NCBI GenBank assembly: GCA_963169645.1
Contig: CAUJCO010000013.1
Location: forward strand, 781,923-845,922
Reading direction: 5' to 3'
Origin: Bacteroidota bacterium
Lineage (GTDB): Bacteria > Bacteroidota > Bacteroidia > Chitinophagales > JADIYW01
Length of the DNA: 64,000 nt
Positions within the stretch are counted from its first letter, which is position 1. Every line of letters starts with the position of its first letter. Shown here piece after piece: positions 4,869-18,986 of the stretch. The translations under genes and the position numbers were made by a program. The notes below the pieces were generated by a model. It was not told the origin of the DNA, searched no databases, and saw nothing but the letters and a program-made list of their open reading frames with translations.

Positions 4869-5462
4869 ATGGAAACTAAACAAAAAACACCGGTGATGAT
4901 TTATACAGAAGCCACACCGAATCCAAATACATTAAAATTTGTAACCAATAAAGCTTTGTTGTTAAACGATGCAATTGAATTTCAAACGATAGAAGACACT
5001 ACAGAAGCACCATTGGCTAAAGCACTTTTTGAAATGGAAGGCGTGAGCAATGTTTTTGTGAGCAACAACTTTGTATCTATATCCAAAACGGATGATTTTC
5101 TTTGGGCAGAAATTATGATTCCTATTAAAGAGTTCTTAAAGAAATTTATTGAAGATGGAAATGACATTATCACGGCTAATTATGTGAAGCCTACAAAAAC
5201 AGCCACCAATGCAATTTATGAAAACGATAGCGATTTAGAAATTCGCATTAAAGGTGCATTGGATAAATATGTGAAACCGGCAGTAGAAATGGATGGTGGA
5301 AATATCTCGTTTGTAAAATTTGAAAATGGAATATTAACGGTACAATTACAAGGCTCTTGCAGTGGTTGTCCTTCTAGTACTGTTACGTTGAAACAAGGCA
5401 TCGAAAACTTAATGAAACGGTTTGTGCCCGAAGTGCAAAGCGTTATAGCAGAAAGCGAATAA
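4869..5462 (+). CDS. Nfu-type Fe-S cluster scaffold/carrier protein
   Basis: Two domains are visible in 197 residues. The N-terminal Nfu/scaffold domain (about 10-95) starts with the typical IYTEATPNPNTLKFV. The C-terminal NifU domain (about 122-190) carries CSGC (C164, C167), the cysteine pair that binds a bridging [4Fe-4S] cluster in a dimer. Proteins of this build deliver Fe-S clusters to apo-enzymes. It lies just upstream of the operon for sulfite reductase, itself a [4Fe-4S]-siroheme enzyme, though the attenuator between them suggests separate transcription. The ATG at 4869 fits; a second Met (codon 10) just before IYTEAT is an alternative start. Confidence 0.92.
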   Translation: METKQKTPVMIYTEATPNPNTLKFVTNKALLLNDAIEFQTIEDTTEAPLAKALFEMEGVSNVFVSNNFVSISKTDDFLWAEIMIPIKEFLKKFIEDGNDIITANYVKPTKTATNAIYENDSDLEIRIKGALDKYVKPAVEMDGGNISFVKFENGILTVQLQGSCSGCPSSTVTLKQGIENLMKRFVPEVQSVIAESE

Positions 5463-5553
5463 GAAAGAATCCGTCAAAAGTCAAAAAATAATCCAACACG
5501 TCAATTATTTTATTCGATAAAAAGCAGATTTTCGTTATTAAATTATTAACCAC

Positions 5554-5584
5554 TTTTTTAAATGCATCAAAAAAATTAATTTTA
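5554..5584 (+). promoter_or_regulatory. Putative promoter of the sulfite-reductase leader
   Basis: TTTT (5554-5557), a 19-base spacer, then TAATTTTA (5577-5584) resembles the Bacteroidota TTTG-N19-TANNTTTG promoter with one mismatch in each box. It would start transcription only a few bases before the leader-peptide ATG at 5592. Confidence 0.4.
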
Positions 5585-5591
5585 GTTGCAA

Positions 5592-5642
5592 ATGAAACAA
5601 ATAGTCAGCCTATATAATTGTTGTTGTTCTAATCCACAGTAG
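5592..5642 (+). CDS. Cysteine leader peptide (16 aa)
   Basis: A short ORF reads MKQIVSLYNCCCSNPQ and then TAG. It has three consecutive TGT cysteine codons (5619-5627). The stop codon abuts hairpin segment 2 of the attenuator, and the first half of the ORF overlaps segment 1. A run of codons for the end product of the downstream pathway, followed by mutually exclusive hairpins and a terminator, is the architecture of ribosome-mediated attenuation, as in the amino-acid operon leaders of proteobacteria. Sulfite reductase makes sulfide for cysteine synthesis, so the codon choice fits. The ORF is supported by position and codon content only, not by known homologues. Confidence 0.8.
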   Translation: MKQIVSLYNCCCSNPQ

Positions 5643-5706
5643 TTGGATAGGTTGATTTTATATAAATAAACGAATGTACCTATCTCTTAAGTAGATAGGT
5701 TTTTTT
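5607..5706 (+). promoter_or_regulatory. Ribosome-mediated transcription attenuator (Cys-responsive, predicted)
   Basis: Three competing pairings can be drawn. Segment 1 (5607-5613, AGCCTAT, inside the leader ORF) pairs with segment 2 (5647-5653, ATAGGTT). Segment 2 (5646-5652, GATAGGT) pairs with segment 3 (5678-5684, ACCTATC). Segment 3 (5678-5685) pairs with segment 4 (5693-5700), the terminator. A ribosome stalled on the Cys codons would mask segment 1, free segment 2 to bind segment 3 and let transcription pass. A ribosome that reaches the stop codon at 5640-5642 would cover segment 2 and let the terminator form. The pairings are seen; the mechanism is inferred by analogy. Confidence 0.78.
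5678..5706 (+). terminator. Attenuator terminator upstream of sulfite reductase
   Basis: ACCTATCT (5678-5685) pairs perfectly with AGATAGGT (5693-5700), with a 7-base loop and T7 following. It stands 80 bp before the sulfite reductase ATG, not after a gene, which marks it as a conditional terminator. Confidence 0.85.
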
Positions 5707-5786
5707 ATTAATAGATAAAAGTAAGTGTATAAGAGTAGAATAAAAAATCCACTCCAAATTCCAAACTTGAATCTTAAATCTTAAAT

Positions 5787-7910
5787 ATGAGTGTAACAAT
5801 CACCAAAAACATTTCCCAAGAAGCAGCTCGAGACATCTTTGAATTGCAACACAAAATCAATGCCTTCCAAAAAGGTGAAATTCCGGAAGATAAATTCAAA
5901 TCTTTCCGACTTACCAGAGGCGTATACGGACAGCGACAATTTGGAGTGCAAATGTTTCGTACTAAATTCCCGTTCGGAAAAATTACACCGATTCAGCTTC
6001 GCCGTTTAGCGGATTTGTCTGAGCAATATGCAAGTGCCAATTTGCATTTAACCACGAGACAAAACATTCAAATGCATTACGTGAAAGTTACCGATGCACC
6101 GGCAATGTGGGCAGGGTTGGAAGATGTGGGTGCAACCGCGAGAGAAGCATGTGGAAACACTGTTCGAAATATGACGGGTTCTTCTTTTGCCGGTATTGAT
6201 AAAGATGAATTGTTTGATGTTTCTCCGTACGTGAGAGAAACGTTTGAATATTTTCTTCGCTATCCAATCAACCAAGATATGGGCAGAAAATTTAAGATAG
6301 CCTATTCCTCTTCTGATAAAGATTCTGCGTATACATTCTTGCACGACATTGGTTTTATTCCACGCCTGCAAGATGGTGAACGCGGCTTTAAAGTAGTTGT
6401 TGGTGGTGGCTTAGGTGCACAAGCTGTTTTGGCACAAACTGCACACGAATTTTTACACGAAGACTTAGTGATTCCATTTATTGAAGCGTGCTTGCGGGTG
6501 TTTGATAGATATGGCGAACGTTCACGAAGAAATAAAGCACGTATGAAATACTTGATGAAAGATATTGGCTTAGAAAAATTCATGGAATTAGTTACCATCG
6601 AACATAAAGCCAATAAAGTAAAATCATACAAGTTTGATAGAAACAAAGTAGATGACGGCAAACCAACCCACAATAACATTGCTCCAAGTGTAGAAATAAA
6701 AGATACACAACGATACAATGATTGGTTGAAAACAAACGTGTTTGAACAAAAACAAGCCGGCTATTTTGCCGTTGCATTAAAAGTAACCAAAGGTGATATA
6801 AAACCGGATCAAGCCCGTATTATTGCAGATATGGCGGAGCAATATGCATCTCAAGATATGCGTATTACCATGAATCAAGGTTTATTATTGAAGTTTATTC
6901 CGGAAGCCTCTTTGCCCTATTTCTATCAAGAATTAGATAAATTAGGATTTGCTAATCCGGGTTATGATACCATTGGTGATGTAACCACTTGTCCCGGAAC
7001 AGATACATGTAACTTAGGTGTTACCAACAGTATGACGTTAGGAAAAATTTTAGAAGATGTTATTCAGGATGAATTTTATCATTTAATTTTTGATAGCGAA
7101 ATAAAAATTAAAATAAGTGGCTGCATGAATTCTTGTGGACAACACATGGCTGCTAATATTGGTTTGCACGGAAGTTCCATTAAAGTGGGCGAGCGTGTTG
7201 CACCGGCAATGCAAGTAATTTTAGGCGGTGGTGTAGATGTAAATGGCGTAGGCTTCATCGGCGAAAAAATTGTAAAAATACCAACCAAACGCACACCCGA
7301 AATGTTGCGTATGGTGTTGAACGATTATGAAACCAATAGCACTGTAGGCGAATATTTTAATGATTATTACAAACGTCAAGGTAAAAATTATTTCTATACT
7401 TTATTGAAGCCATTGGCAAATGTTGCATTGTATGTAGATGATGATTTTATTGATTATGGCGGAAGTGAAGCTTATACACCGGAAATTGGTGTAGGTGAAT
7501 GTGCCGGCGTAATGTATGATATGATTGGTATTATTATGAAAGAGGCTGAAATGAAATTAATGGATGCCAAAGAGCATTCAAAAAACAACCGTTTTGCTGA
7601 AGCCATTTATTATGTATATACCGGATTTATTGTAACGGCAAAAGCTTTATTGTTAACGAATGAAGTAGAATGTAATACACAAATAAAAATCATCAAAGAT
7701 TTTGATACACATTTTGTTCAAACAAATAAAATAACTTGTCCGGACAGTTTTGAAAACTTGGTTTTACAAATTAACCAATTCGAACCGGAACAAGCATTTG
7801 CCGAAAAATATATTCAACAGTTTGAAACATTTCTAAAAGATGCAGTAGCACTTCGAGAGGTAATTGTTAATGCCGAAAAAGTAGTGGTAGAAAGCAACTA
7901 CAAAGCGTAA
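5787..7910 (+). CDS. Sulfite (nitrite/sulfite) reductase hemoprotein with C-terminal HEPN-like domain
   Basis: This is a siroheme/[4Fe-4S] enzyme reducing sulfite to sulfide in assimilation. Two ferredoxin-like half-domains and two siroheme domains are present in the usual order. The cluster ligands are C402-x5-C408 (TCPGTDTC) and C446-x3-C450 (GCMNSC). The catalytic core ends near residue 570. About 120 further residues (KEAEMKLMDAKEH, then FAEAIYYVYTGFIVTAKALLL) look like a HEPN-type helical domain; the RxxxxH nuclease motif is not seen, so a binding or scaffold role is more likely. Nitrite reduction cannot be excluded, but the adjacent siroheme methyltransferase and the Cys leader favour sulfite. 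Expression is probably set by the attenuator at 5607-5706. Heptamer repeats (5763-5783) lie directly before the ATG. Confidence 0.92.
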   Translation: MSVTITKNISQEAARDIFELQHKINAFQKGEIPEDKFKSFRLTRGVYGQRQFGVQMFRTKFPFGKITPIQLRRLADLSEQYASANLHLTTRQNIQMHYVKVTDAPAMWAGLEDVGATAREACGNTVRNMTGSSFAGIDKDELFDVSPYVRETFEYFLRYPINQDMGRKFKIAYSSSDKDSAYTFLHDIGFIPRLQDGERGFKVVVGGGLGAQAVLAQTAHEFLHEDLVIPFIEACLRVFDRYGERSRRNKARMKYLMKDIGLEKFMELVTIEHKANKVKSYKFDRNKVDDGKPTHNNIAPSVEIKDTQRYNDWLKTNVFEQKQAGYFAVALKVTKGDIKPDQARIIADMAEQYASQDMRITMNQGLLLKFIPEASLPYFYQELDKLGFANPGYDTIGDVTTCPGTDTCNLGVTNSMTLGKILEDVIQDEFYHLIFDSEIKIKISGCMNSCGQHMAANIGLHGSSIKVGERVAPAMQVILGGGVDVNGVGFIGEKIVKIPTKRTPEMLRMVLNDYETNSTVGEYFNDYYKRQGKNYFYTLLKPLANVALYVDDDFIDYGGSEAYTPEIGVGECAGVMYDMIGIIMKEAEMKLMDAKEHSKNNRFAEAIYYVYTGFIVTAKALLLTNEVECNTQIKIIKDFDTHFVQTNKITCPDSFENLVLQINQFEPEQAFAEKYIQQFETFLKDAVALREVIVNAEKVVVESNYKA

Positions 7911-8119
7911 TAATACGCTATTATTAAATGCGATTTATTCTTTTTAATGTAGGATTTAAGATTGGAATCGTTGGTTGTAGTCGGTAGAAAAATGGAGTTT
8001 TTCGAATGTAAAAAAGCAACTTAATTTCCAACCTACCGGATACAAATTGAAATTGAAAGAGCAATATTCCATTAACAAAATCTAAATACTACACTCCAAA
8101 ATAATGTTTATATTTAAGT

Positions 8120-8326
8120 ATGCAAATTCAACAAGACAACGATAGCCTGATTATTTCAATACCAAATAATATTGATGCTTTTGGAAAACAAAAGTTAATT
8201 GAATATGCAAAATATTTGGAGCTTACTGCCGGTAAAAAAATTAAACAGGAAGAAGCTGATACATTAGCTGAAGAACTGAAATCTACATGGTGGAAAAAAA
8301 ATAAGAAGCGTTTCGTTAAATCATGA
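8120..8326 (+). CDS. Putative antitoxin of a PIN-domain toxin-antitoxin pair
   Basis: The 68-residue protein consists of a short beta-rich N-terminus (MQIQQDNDSLIISIPNN) followed by charged helices ending in WWKKNKKRFVKS. Its stop codon overlaps the start of the PIN gene in an ATGA arrangement, the usual antitoxin-toxin coupling. I do not recognise its family; the antitoxin role is inferred from size and position. It sits 209 bp after sulfite reductase, on the same strand. Confidence 0.7.
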   Translation: MQIQQDNDSLIISIPNNIDAFGKQKLIEYAKYLELTAGKKIKQEEADTLAEELKSTWWKKNKKRFVKS

Positions 8327-8754
8327 AAATAATTGTAGATGCCAACATAGCATTTAGTGCAATTTTAAATACGAATGGTAAAATTGCTGACCTACTGATT
8401 AATTGTACAAATGTAAAATTTATTGCACCGGATTTACTTAGATTAGAAATCCGCAAATACCACAATAAGTTGGCAAAAACAAAAAAAATAAGTCCTTCTG
8501 ATATTCAAGAAATTGAATATTTTATCTTTCAAAATATTGTGTTTATCTCGGAAATTCAAATCGAAGAAAAGTATTGGAAACAAGCATACGAATTATTAAA
8601 AGATATTGACGAAAAAGATACTCCTTATATAGCGTATGCTTTAAAATTCAAATGTAAACTTTGGACTGGAGATAAAAAGTTAGTAAATGGATTGAAAAAG
8701 AAAAATCGTTCGCTAACTATTTCTACAAATGAATTATATGAGTTGCTAAATTAA
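8323..8754 (+). CDS. PIN-domain ribonuclease, probable toxin
   Basis: The 143-residue protein has the PIN fold signature. It starts MKIIVDANIAFSAIL with Asp6; further acidic positions are Glu42, Asp99 (DEKDTPYIAYAL) and Asp117 (LWTGDKKL), which would form the Mg-dependent nuclease site. PIN toxins usually cleave tRNA or mRNA. It overlaps the preceding small gene by 4 bp and ends 6 bp before the siroheme methyltransferase gene, so this pair sits inside the sulfite-reduction operon and could be read through from it. All four acidic residues are intact, so it is probably active when released from its partner. Confidence 0.85.
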   Translation: MKIIVDANIAFSAILNTNGKIADLLINCTNVKFIAPDLLRLEIRKYHNKLAKTKKISPSDIQEIEYFIFQNIVFISEIQIEEKYWKQAYELLKDIDEKDTPYIAYALKFKCKLWTGDKKLVNGLKKKNRSLTISTNELYELLN

Positions 8755-8760
8755 ATACCA

Positions 8761-9480
8761 ATGCTTAAAAAACTTATTCTTGTGGGTGCAGGTCCGGGCG
8801 ATGCCGAATTAATTTCTTTAAAAGGCATTAAAGCTTTACAACAAGCTAATGTGGTCATGTATGATGCGTTGGTAAGTGAAGAATTATTGCAATATGCACC
8901 GAATGCAAAAATAATTTTTTGCGGTAAACGTGCCGGAACGCATTACATGAAACAAGATGAAATCAACCAAACTATCGTATCCAATGTTGAAATGCATGGT
9001 ATAGTAGTACGTTTAAAAGGCGGCGATCCGTTTGTATTTGGTCGAGGTCACGAAGAAATACAGTATGCAGAAAAACATGGCATTATCACCGAAATTATTC
9101 CGGGAATTTCCAGTGCTACAGCATTAGCCACCGTGCACAAAATACCACTTACCAAACGTGGTGTTACAGAAAGTGCATGGATAACAACAGGCACTACGTC
9201 GTGTGGCAAACTATCCGAAGATATTGAATTGGCGGCCCAATCCAATGCTACAGTCGTGGTATTAATGGGCGTTGGAAAGTTAGCTGAAATTGTAGCCGTA
9301 TTTCGAAAATACAAGCCTTCCTCTTATCCGATTTCTATTATCCAAAATGGTACTATGCCCAATGAGAAATGGATTAATGGAAATTTAGAGAATATACAAG
9401 CATTGGCACTTGCTGAAAATATTCAACCACCTGCCGTTATTCTAATTGGCAAGGTGGTGGAAGTAAATGATGTGAATTAA
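8761..9480 (+). CDS. cobA: Uroporphyrinogen-III C-methyltransferase
   Basis: The 239-residue SAM-dependent enzyme methylates uroporphyrinogen III at C2 and C7 to give precorrin-2, the first step towards siroheme (and cobalamin). Family motifs are visible in order: LVGAGPGDAELISLKG at the N-terminus, VVRLKGGDPFVFGRGHEE, then IPGISSATA and TVVVLMGVGKL. Length fits the single-domain SUMT form without CysG dehydrogenase/chelatase. Its position after sulfite reductase indicates siroheme supply for that enzyme. Its 3' end overlaps the convergent cyclophilin gene by 4 bp (9477-9480). Confidence 0.95.
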   Translation: MLKKLILVGAGPGDAELISLKGIKALQQANVVMYDALVSEELLQYAPNAKIIFCGKRAGTHYMKQDEINQTIVSNVEMHGIVVRLKGGDPFVFGRGHEEIQYAEKHGIITEIIPGISSATALATVHKIPLTKRGVTESAWITTGTTSCGKLSEDIELAAQSNATVVVLMGVGKLAEIVAVFRKYKPSSYPISIIQNGTMPNEKWINGNLENIQALALAENIQPPAVILIGKVVEVNDVN

Positions 9481-17691: not shown

Positions 17692-18714
17692 CTATTGACT
17701 ATCGACCATCGACAGTTGACCAACAACTTTTCTTGGTTTATAATTCTTTGCTACTTCTGCAAAACATTTAATGTGTTCGGGTGTGGTGCCGCAACATCCA
17801 CCTAAAATATTGATTAAGCCTAATTCCAAATATTCTTTGGTTGCTTCCGCCATTTGTTCCGGTGTCTCATCATAACCACCGAAAGCGTTTGGCAAACCGG
17901 CATTTGGATAAGCACTTACAAAGAAGGGCGCTTCTTTTGCCAAAATTTGTAGGTATGGCAACAACTCTTTGGCGCCTAAGGCACAATTTAAGCCAACCGA
18001 AAATAAAGGAACATGTGAAACCGAAATCAAAAATGCTTCGGTGGTTTGTCCGCTCAACGTTCTGCCGCTGGCGTCTGTTATTGTACCGGAAATAGAAACA
18101 GGATATTCTTTTCCGATGTCTTCAAATAAAGATTGTACAGCAAACAAAGCCGCCTTTGCATTTAAGGTATCAAAGATGGTTTCTATCAATAAAATATCTA
18201 CACCACCATCAATTAGTGCCTTTGCCTGATCGTAATATGCTGTTACTAATTGGTCAAAAGTTACAGCTCTGAAACCAGGATCGTTTACATCCGGTGAGAT
18301 AGAACAAGTTCTATTTGTTGGGCCTATGGCACCGGCAACAAAACGCGGTTTATGTGGTTCTTTGGCGGTGATTTCATCGGCTACTTCGCGTGCAATTTTT
18401 GCACTTTGAAAGTTAATGTCATATACAGCATCTTCTAAATGATAATCTGCTTGCGCAATAGTAGTTCCACTAAAAGTATTGGTTTCAACAATATCAGCAC
18501 CGGCTTCAAAATATTGGCGATGTATTTCTTTGATTATATCCGGACGCGTAATAGACAGCAAATCGTTATTGCCTTTTAATGGAAAAGCGTGGTCTTTAAA
18601 TACGTTACCGCGAAAATCTTCTTCTTGCAATTGGTAGCGTTGTATCATGGTGCCCATAGCACCGTCTAAAATTAAGATGCGCTCTTGAGCTATTTGATAT
18701 AAGTTATTGGTCAT
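17692..18714 (-). CDS. metH: Methionine synthase, homocysteine-binding part (split MetH)
   Basis: The 340-residue protein is the Zn-dependent homocysteine S-methyltransferase module of MetH. It opens with [15 protein letters not shown]. Zinc ligands are Cys244 (GLNCALG) and Cys307/Cys308 ([10 protein letters not shown]). It lacks folate and B12 domains, which are supplied by the gene at 14568-17267. The ATG at 18714 is preceded by an overlapping five-codon frame (ATG at 18721) in a repeated ATGACCA context. It is the first gene after a SAM-I riboswitch, so high SAM should lower its expression. Confidence 0.94.
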
Positions 18715-18797
18715 TGGTCATTAGTTTTGAGACGAACTGTACTGTTCATTCAAAACGAATTACGAAATAAGGTAAGAGAATGAAAATTGATTTACTT
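18715..18797 (-). promoter_or_regulatory. Predicted expression platform of the SAM riboswitch
   Basis: No U-tract terminator is present. On the minus strand, AAATAAGTAAG (18805-18795), which includes the 3' side of aptamer stem P1, can instead pair with CTTACCTTATTT (18776-18765). A second hairpin pairs TCAAAAC/GTTTTGA (18750-18756 and 18724-18730) within about 10-16 bases of the metH start. Translational control is therefore more likely than termination; this is inference from pairing. Confidence 0.45.
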
Positions 18798-18961
18798 ACT
18801 TATTTTTCTTTGCTATGCAAAAGTAGGATTTGGCACCTTTTTTAGAGAAGAGAAATGAGATTTAAAGAGATAAGAAAACTTATTTTCACATCTCATATCT
18901 TTTTATCTAAAAGGTTGCCAAGACATCATAGAGCCTATTCTCTCCGTCTTTCGTAATAAGT
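18798..18961 (-). ncRNA. SAM-I (S-box) riboswitch aptamer
   Basis: Read on the minus strand, the S-box core is present. P1 is ACTTATT (18961-18955) with AATAAGT (18804-18798). The P2 arm GACGGAGAGA...GGCTCTATGATGTC leads to the conserved TTGGCAACC. The P3 stem is CCTTTTAGA with TCTAAAAAAGG and carries an unusually long insertion. The junction GGTGCCAAATCC follows, then P4 CTTTTGC/GCAAAG. The pseudoknot is supported: TAGG in the P2 loop (18937-18934) pairs with CCTA (18827-18824). S-boxes repress methionine genes when SAM is high, and the next gene is metH. Confidence 0.92.
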
Positions 18962-18986
18962 CATGAATTAAAGAACAATTGTTAGG

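Follow-up and report, generated by a model that had tools for sequence, protein, structure and literature searches.

The window analyzed here, a stretch of 64,000 nucleotides from a member of the Chitinophagales (Bacteroidota), contains a sulfite reductase (SiR) gene that is preceded by a short ORF with consecutive cysteine codons and by a terminator-like hairpin, which raises the question of whether, and how, this gene is controlled by cysteine. The anatomy of the locus, the alternative pairings of the leader RNA, their spacing, the conservation of the element, the partner-specific covariation of its arms, and its association with sulfur genes together argue that this is very probably a classical (trp/his-type) ribosome-mediated transcription attenuator that senses Cys-tRNA(Cys).

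The gene predicted to be regulated (5787–7910, + strand) encodes a sulfite reductase hemoprotein with two NIR_SIR 4Fe-4S domains and two ferredoxin-like half domains (Pfam PF01077 and PF03460). The NCBIfam scores of this protein are under every curated cut-off, so that an exact assignment to CysI or to ferredoxin-SiR is not attainable and the protein is named here as a member of the SiR/NirA group; this naming is supported by the nearby gene for uroporphyrinogen-III C-methyltransferase, an enzyme of siroheme synthesis (8761–9480, + strand; NCBIfam NF004790/TIGR01469, above the cut-off). The terminator scan found no terminator-like site on the + strand in the region 7910–8200, and the methyltransferase gene is possibly cotranscribed with SiR. 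Between these two genes (8120–8754, + strand), there is a small ORF followed by a gene for a PIN-domain toxin-like protein, with a weak NCBIfam match under the cut-off; the pair resembles an inserted toxin-antitoxin system.

Leader ORF and mutually exclusive pairings

The leader peptide ORF MKQIVSLYNCCCSNPQ (5592–5642, + strand) consists of 16 codons followed by TAG and contains three consecutive Cys codons, TGTTGTTGT (TGT TGT TGT, 5619–5627, + strand), i.e., a codon run for the end product of the pathway and the proposed site of ribosome stalling. Seven nucleotides 5' of the leader ATG lies a promoter-like -7 box, TAATTTTA (5577–5584, + strand), which differs from the Bacteroidota pattern TAnnTTTG by one mismatch; in congeners, the box TACTTTTA is likewise located 7 nt from the ATG. 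Such boxes precede 25 of 47 leaders, against 15.9 expected from AT-rich shuffles, a weak enrichment. The TAATTTTA box is the putative promoter box of the leader, the 5' UTR of which is likely to be very short or absent.

The leader RNA can form three mutually exclusive pairings. Segment 1 (5603–5613, + strand), the 5' arm of the protector, pairs with the 5647–5657 portion of segment 2 (5636–5657, + strand) in the minimum-energy fold, together with an inner stem (5615–5624 with 5636–5645), for a total of -18.4 kcal/mol. The antiterminator arm of segment 2 (5645–5652) pairs with segment 3 (5678–5685, + strand) at -9.4 kcal/mol, and segment 3 is also the 5' arm of the terminator, in which it pairs with segment 4 (5693–5700, + strand) at -8.5 kcal/mol. 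The resulting intrinsic terminator, with an 8-bp stem, a loop of 7 nt and a T7 tract (5700–5706, + strand), occupies 5678–5706, between the leader ORF and SiR, the start of which is 80 nt past the T tract; it was recovered independently by the terminator scan. The leader stop codon (5640–5642) lies within the 1:2 helix and directly before the 2:3 core, the antiterminator arm beginning 3 nt past it, close enough for a terminating ribosome to reach it, and segment 1 ends 5 nt upstream of the first Cys codon, so that a ribosome on the Cys codons would cover it. Thus, the layout that the sequence-only reading had proposed, namely a 16-codon ORF with three consecutive Cys codons, a stop codon touching segment 2, segment 1 just before the Cys codons, and three exclusive pairings with an 8-bp, T7 terminator, is borne out by folding and by the terminator scan.

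Folding of partial transcripts is compatible with a switch between these pairings. With segment 1 removed, mimicking a stalled ribosome, the minimum-energy fold of 5637–5702 is 2:3, whereas the fold of 5656–5706 alone, mimicking a ribosome at the stop codon, is 3:4. A fold that starts at 5630 (5630–5702) returns to 3:4, so the exact edge of the ribosome matters. The 2:3 hairpin is ahead of 3:4 by just 0.9 kcal/mol, which implies that 2:3 must form first, the kinetic preference that is usual for antiterminators. Compared with dinucleotide shuffles, the fold of the whole leader has z = -3.0; in the window, 2:3 is reached at a frequency of 0.02 and 1:2 in 0 of 100 shuffles.

The proposed mechanism follows the classical scheme. 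The ribosome would trail RNA polymerase along the short ORF. When Cys-tRNA(Cys) is scarce, it would stall at 5619–5627 and mask segment 1; segment 2 would then be available to segment 3, and their pairing would block the terminator and allow sulfite reductase to be transcribed. With ample cysteine, the ribosome would get to the stop codon at 5640–5642 and mask segment 2, whereupon 3:4 would form and terminate transcription. If the leader is not translated, 1:2 would form and 3:4 would again cause termination. We infer each of the three components of this scheme, the stalling, the termination, and the response to cysteine.

Conservation of the leader before sulfite reductase genes

SiR is present in 76 of the 299 Chitinophagales genomes, and 35 of 73 upstream regions in this order contain a poly-Cys leader with an intrinsic terminator. 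When residue triples were counted in ORF-plus-terminator units of these 73 regions, Cys was found 35 times, Leu 5 times, Asn 3 times, and every other residue at most once; on the antisense strand of the same regions, which served as a control, no residue exceeded 3. Within the genus, all 7 readable SiR upstream regions (that of the window genome included) contain a Cys leader ORF followed by a terminator; these leaders are 15–16 codons long, begin with MK, and contain a run of two or three Cys. The same arrangement is found in both other members of the family with a readable SiR upstream region. Across the order, the leaders span about 14–43 residues and mostly contain 3–11 consecutive Cys.

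According to named GTDB records, leaders are present also in Cytophagales (Marinoscillum, Flexithrix, Fulvivirga and others) and in Pedobacter. No Cys leader was found before SiR in Neolewinella (g50) and in most of family f21, nor in the sampled Flavobacteriaceae-like and more distant genomes of the phylum, except for one short ORF with CC. In Pedobacter (L149, L155, L159 and L166), the SiR leaders end in a similar motif, M(C/CY)CCKT(Q/R/K), and genes for Rrf2-type regulators are located nearby. The possibility that an Rrf2-type regulator substitutes for the leader where the latter is missing was rejected given that the two co-occur in Pedobacter and Mucilaginibacter.

In the genome from which the window derives, a covariance model built for the genus gives a convincing score for the SiR leader alone, and none of the other matches (E of 0.004 or higher) is accompanied by a corresponding Cys leader ORF. 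A degenerate pattern (TGY x3 ... TAG) produced 203 matches in this genome and was too unspecific; a search for TGY x5 in nine relatives was useful, with most matches being repeats in other frames.

Covariation and partner specificity of the pairings

The sequence-only reading had named the lack of a conserved short ORF or of covarying hairpins in relatives as the outcome that would speak against it. In the alignment of the genus, the Cys ORFs are conserved and the 3:4 helix shows compensatory changes in two pairs (GC/AU/GU and AU/GC); the 1:2 helix has one compensatory change and is 86% paired, and all sequences keep 2:3 (100%), via single-side changes through G-U. The attenuator reading thus survives this check. 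For a broader comparison, 84 candidate units were collected, of which the 80 that are placed before a gene were kept. In these 80 leaders, the antiterminator arms pair with their own partner at -12.96 kcal/mol compared with -8.67 +/- 0.27 kcal/mol for permuted partners, and the protector arms at -16.7 compared with -13.6 +/- 0.36 kcal/mol, the values for own partners being reached in 0 of 5000 permutations in both cases. The outcome of the permutations is unchanged when close relatives are dropped (71 leaders left). A correlation of both arms could also arise from genome composition, which was controlled for by exchanging arms within 17 tandem pairs, each from a single genome; the own partner is better here as well (P = 1.5e-4 for 2:3 and 5.9e-5 for 1:2). 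Taken singly, 50 of the 80 leaders reach P<=0.05 against dinucleotide shuffles for 2:3 and 25 of 80 for 1:2, so that the antiterminator is general and the protector less so. On this comparative evidence, the view of the predicted element as a product of chance is untenable.

The same data bear on the other explanations of the locus. The poly-Cys ORF could, like its mycobacterial counterparts, act mainly on translation or on access of Rho, and the hairpin could be a terminator that serves the upstream gene and has nothing to do with the ORF. This is the most viable of the alternatives, given that mycobacterial cys genes are reportedly under poly-Cys translation attenuation (PMC13236596) and that SAM-linked poly-Cys ORFs of Cytophagales are not followed by an intrinsic terminator, but it appears improbable: the terminators of the SiR/cysK leaders lie at a median of 29 nt past the leader stop (80 leaders), the 5' arm of the terminator pairs specifically with segment 2 of its own leader, and the leader sits between the end of the upstream gene and the terminator even where the upstream gene is a different one. 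Another explanation is that the Cys-rich peptide itself is the product, perhaps metal-binding or modified, and that the hairpin simply ends its transcript. The conservation of the short ORF and the runs of up to 11 consecutive Cys are in line with such a role, but outside the genus the Cys run is the sole conserved part of the peptide, which fits a sensor, and the longest run varies from 2 to 11 among leaders; furthermore, the ORF is linked to sulfur genes, and the alternative pairings would be superfluous for a plain terminator, making this reading very improbable. Finally, a metabolite riboswitch or a T-box with a fortuitous ORF, which could be suspected from a structured leader with a terminator before a biosynthetic gene in genomes where SAM riboswitches are common, is hardly credible, given that Rfam covariance models (5400–5900, E up to 10) yield no match near the gathering score, RF01692 (Bacteroid-trp) has no match at the leader locus, and the leader sequence is free to vary as long as the Cys codons and the pairings stay.

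A predicted cysteine regulon and putative tandem attenuators

The attenuator reading is extended by the genes that the leaders precede. The placement before sulfite reductase, as noted from the sequence alone, is correct for the window, where SiR starts at 5787, but it is not peculiar to SiR. A search for Cys runs in nine relatives, followed by reading of the loci, reveals a poly-Cys leader unit also before a cysteine synthase gene (Pfam PALP). In the window's family, all 7 members that possess this gene, three congeners included, have the leader; the genome of the window lacks that gene, its best match showing 33% identity. In relatives, there is also a tandem pair of leaders before another cysteine synthase and a single leader before a MetY-like enzyme. 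Thus, the leaders form a predicted cysteine regulon that includes SiR, cysteine synthase, and MetY.

In Chitinophagales, two complete predicted Cys attenuators frequently follow one another. Among the relatives, 17 loci have two successive poly-Cys leader-plus-terminator units before one gene (including L010, L031, L035, L038, L043, L046, L055, L056 and L061; further loci are L108, L109, L120 and L204, among others). If correctly predicted, such tandem attenuators would be a natural two-stage RNA circuit with a steeper response.

Poly-Cys ORFs joined to SAM-I riboswitches

Inspection of 79 SAM aptamers (RF00162), most from 194 Cytophagales genomes, with another eight taken from named records and one from the window itself, identified 35 that are followed by a Cys-rich ORF, the ATG of which lies at a median of 9 nt downstream (range 4–15). 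One of these (L311) contains scattered Cys only and was removed from later counts, leaving 34. The composite loci include L098, L101, L102, L107, L112, L118, L123 and L127, with others among L279–L344. The Cys codons of these ORFs usually abut the stop codon, and by the criterion used none of the 34 is followed by an intrinsic terminator within 150 nt.

The composites are associated with particular downstream genes, which were named from sequence motifs. The ORF was found at 14 of 18 aptamers before metY, 6 of 7 before metB/Z (with or without a ferredoxin gene), 5 of 5 before SiR, 2 of 7 before metX, 0 of 17 before metH, and 0 of 2 before metK; the loci are the best-scoring ones plus others hand-picked for family spread and include several close relatives, and these fractions are not population estimates. 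For metH and metK combined, the share is 0 of 19 compared with 26 of 34 for metY, metB/Z, SiR, and cysH (Fisher P = 2.4e-8, a mere guide given that the pattern was already known when the gene classes were compared). At four metY aptamers (L288, L291, L295 and L301), there is a short ORF at the 9–10 nt spacing without a Cys run. The window's own SAM riboswitch (18797–18962, - strand; 71.9 bits) was considered as a composite and rejected; it is a plain one, located before the methionine synthase gene metH (17692–18714), and spans 166 nt against a model of 108 positions, indicative of long insertions.

In Chitinophagales, 2 of the 30 inspected aptamers have a poly-Cys ORF downstream, at a distance of 13 nt (L366) and 146 nt (L345). 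In the former, from a member of the window's family (G009), the SAM riboswitch and the poly-Cys ORF are followed by a gene without an evident role as a sulfur enzyme (MSTNIKASFETLIGQLKSQ...), possibly a new member of the regulon.

On balance, we lean towards the view that poly-Cys leaders joined to SAM-I riboswitches are two-input RNA devices that would be on only when SAM and cysteine are both low. In the composites, the P1 helix ends about 9 nt 5' of the leader ATG and, with SAM bound, would plausibly interfere with the start of translation. The untranslated leader RNA would be the off state, whereas the translated leader would read the cysteine supply; with the untranslated leader off, the genes would be on only if SAM and Cys-tRNA are both low. 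The fixed spacing and the choice of genes are observed and suggest a two-input control of sulfur genes, in which the gating by SAM is presumed. If true, these fusions would be a natural two-input RNA circuit.

Comparison with known attenuators

In the trp and his attenuators of Proteobacteria, a leader peptide with many residues of the regulated amino acid is combined with an intrinsic terminator and three mutually exclusive pairings. The window element shares these three features and the position of the stop codon at segment 2, but differs in the proposed sensing of cysteine, the control of sulfite reductase, the occurrence in Bacteroidota, the likely very short 5' UTR, and the frequent doubling of the attenuators in relatives.

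For Mycobacterium, Canestrari (2020) reportedly described poly-Cys leaders of cys operons. The leaders of Mycobacterium and other Actinobacteria are, like that of the window, short ORFs with Cys runs 5' of sulfur genes; they are leaderless in mycobacteria, and the window leader is probably nearly so. Unlike the mycobacterial type, which is terminator-free, the window element has an intrinsic terminator coupled to the leader. In actinobacterial cys operons with poly-Cys leaders, no conserved terminator hairpin was found (PMC1262725), and for M. smegmatis, translation attenuation by such leaders is reported (PMC13236596). Besides the mycobacterial ORFs named in the sequence-only reading, the precedents include Rhodobacterales cysS leaders with intrinsic terminators. 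In Rhodobacterales, the uORFC-8-2 motif that precedes cysS has tandem Cys codons, hairpins, and a U-run terminator, and attenuation by Cys-tRNA has been proposed for it (PMC8632094). This short ORF is similar to the window element in all three of these features but differs in the target, cysteinyl-tRNA synthetase, in belonging to Alphaproteobacteria, and in having two Cys codons that lie within the first stem; the window element is located 5' of SiR, not of cysS.

In the same phylum as the window, candidate attenuators include the Bacteroid-trp motif RF01692 (PMC2864571) and those of Flavobacterium psychrophilum, for which leader-peptide attenuation is noted and the main text names no case involving cysteine or SiR (PMC9723704). 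The sequence-only reading knew of no description for a Bacteroidota sulfite reductase, and none of a Cys leader in Bacteroidota, SiR included, was found in the literature searched, the coverage of which is incomplete, so that an earlier description is possible. The present observations offer a concrete candidate for cysteine control over sulfur assimilation in Chitinophagales and parts of Cytophagales and Sphingobacteriales, which are widespread in the environment, and suggest that terminator-type, Cys-reading transcription attenuators extend well beyond Proteobacteria. Taken alone, the window element is a further case of a known type, Cys-leader attenuation; the wider set, with its tandem and SAM-linked forms, would extend that type.
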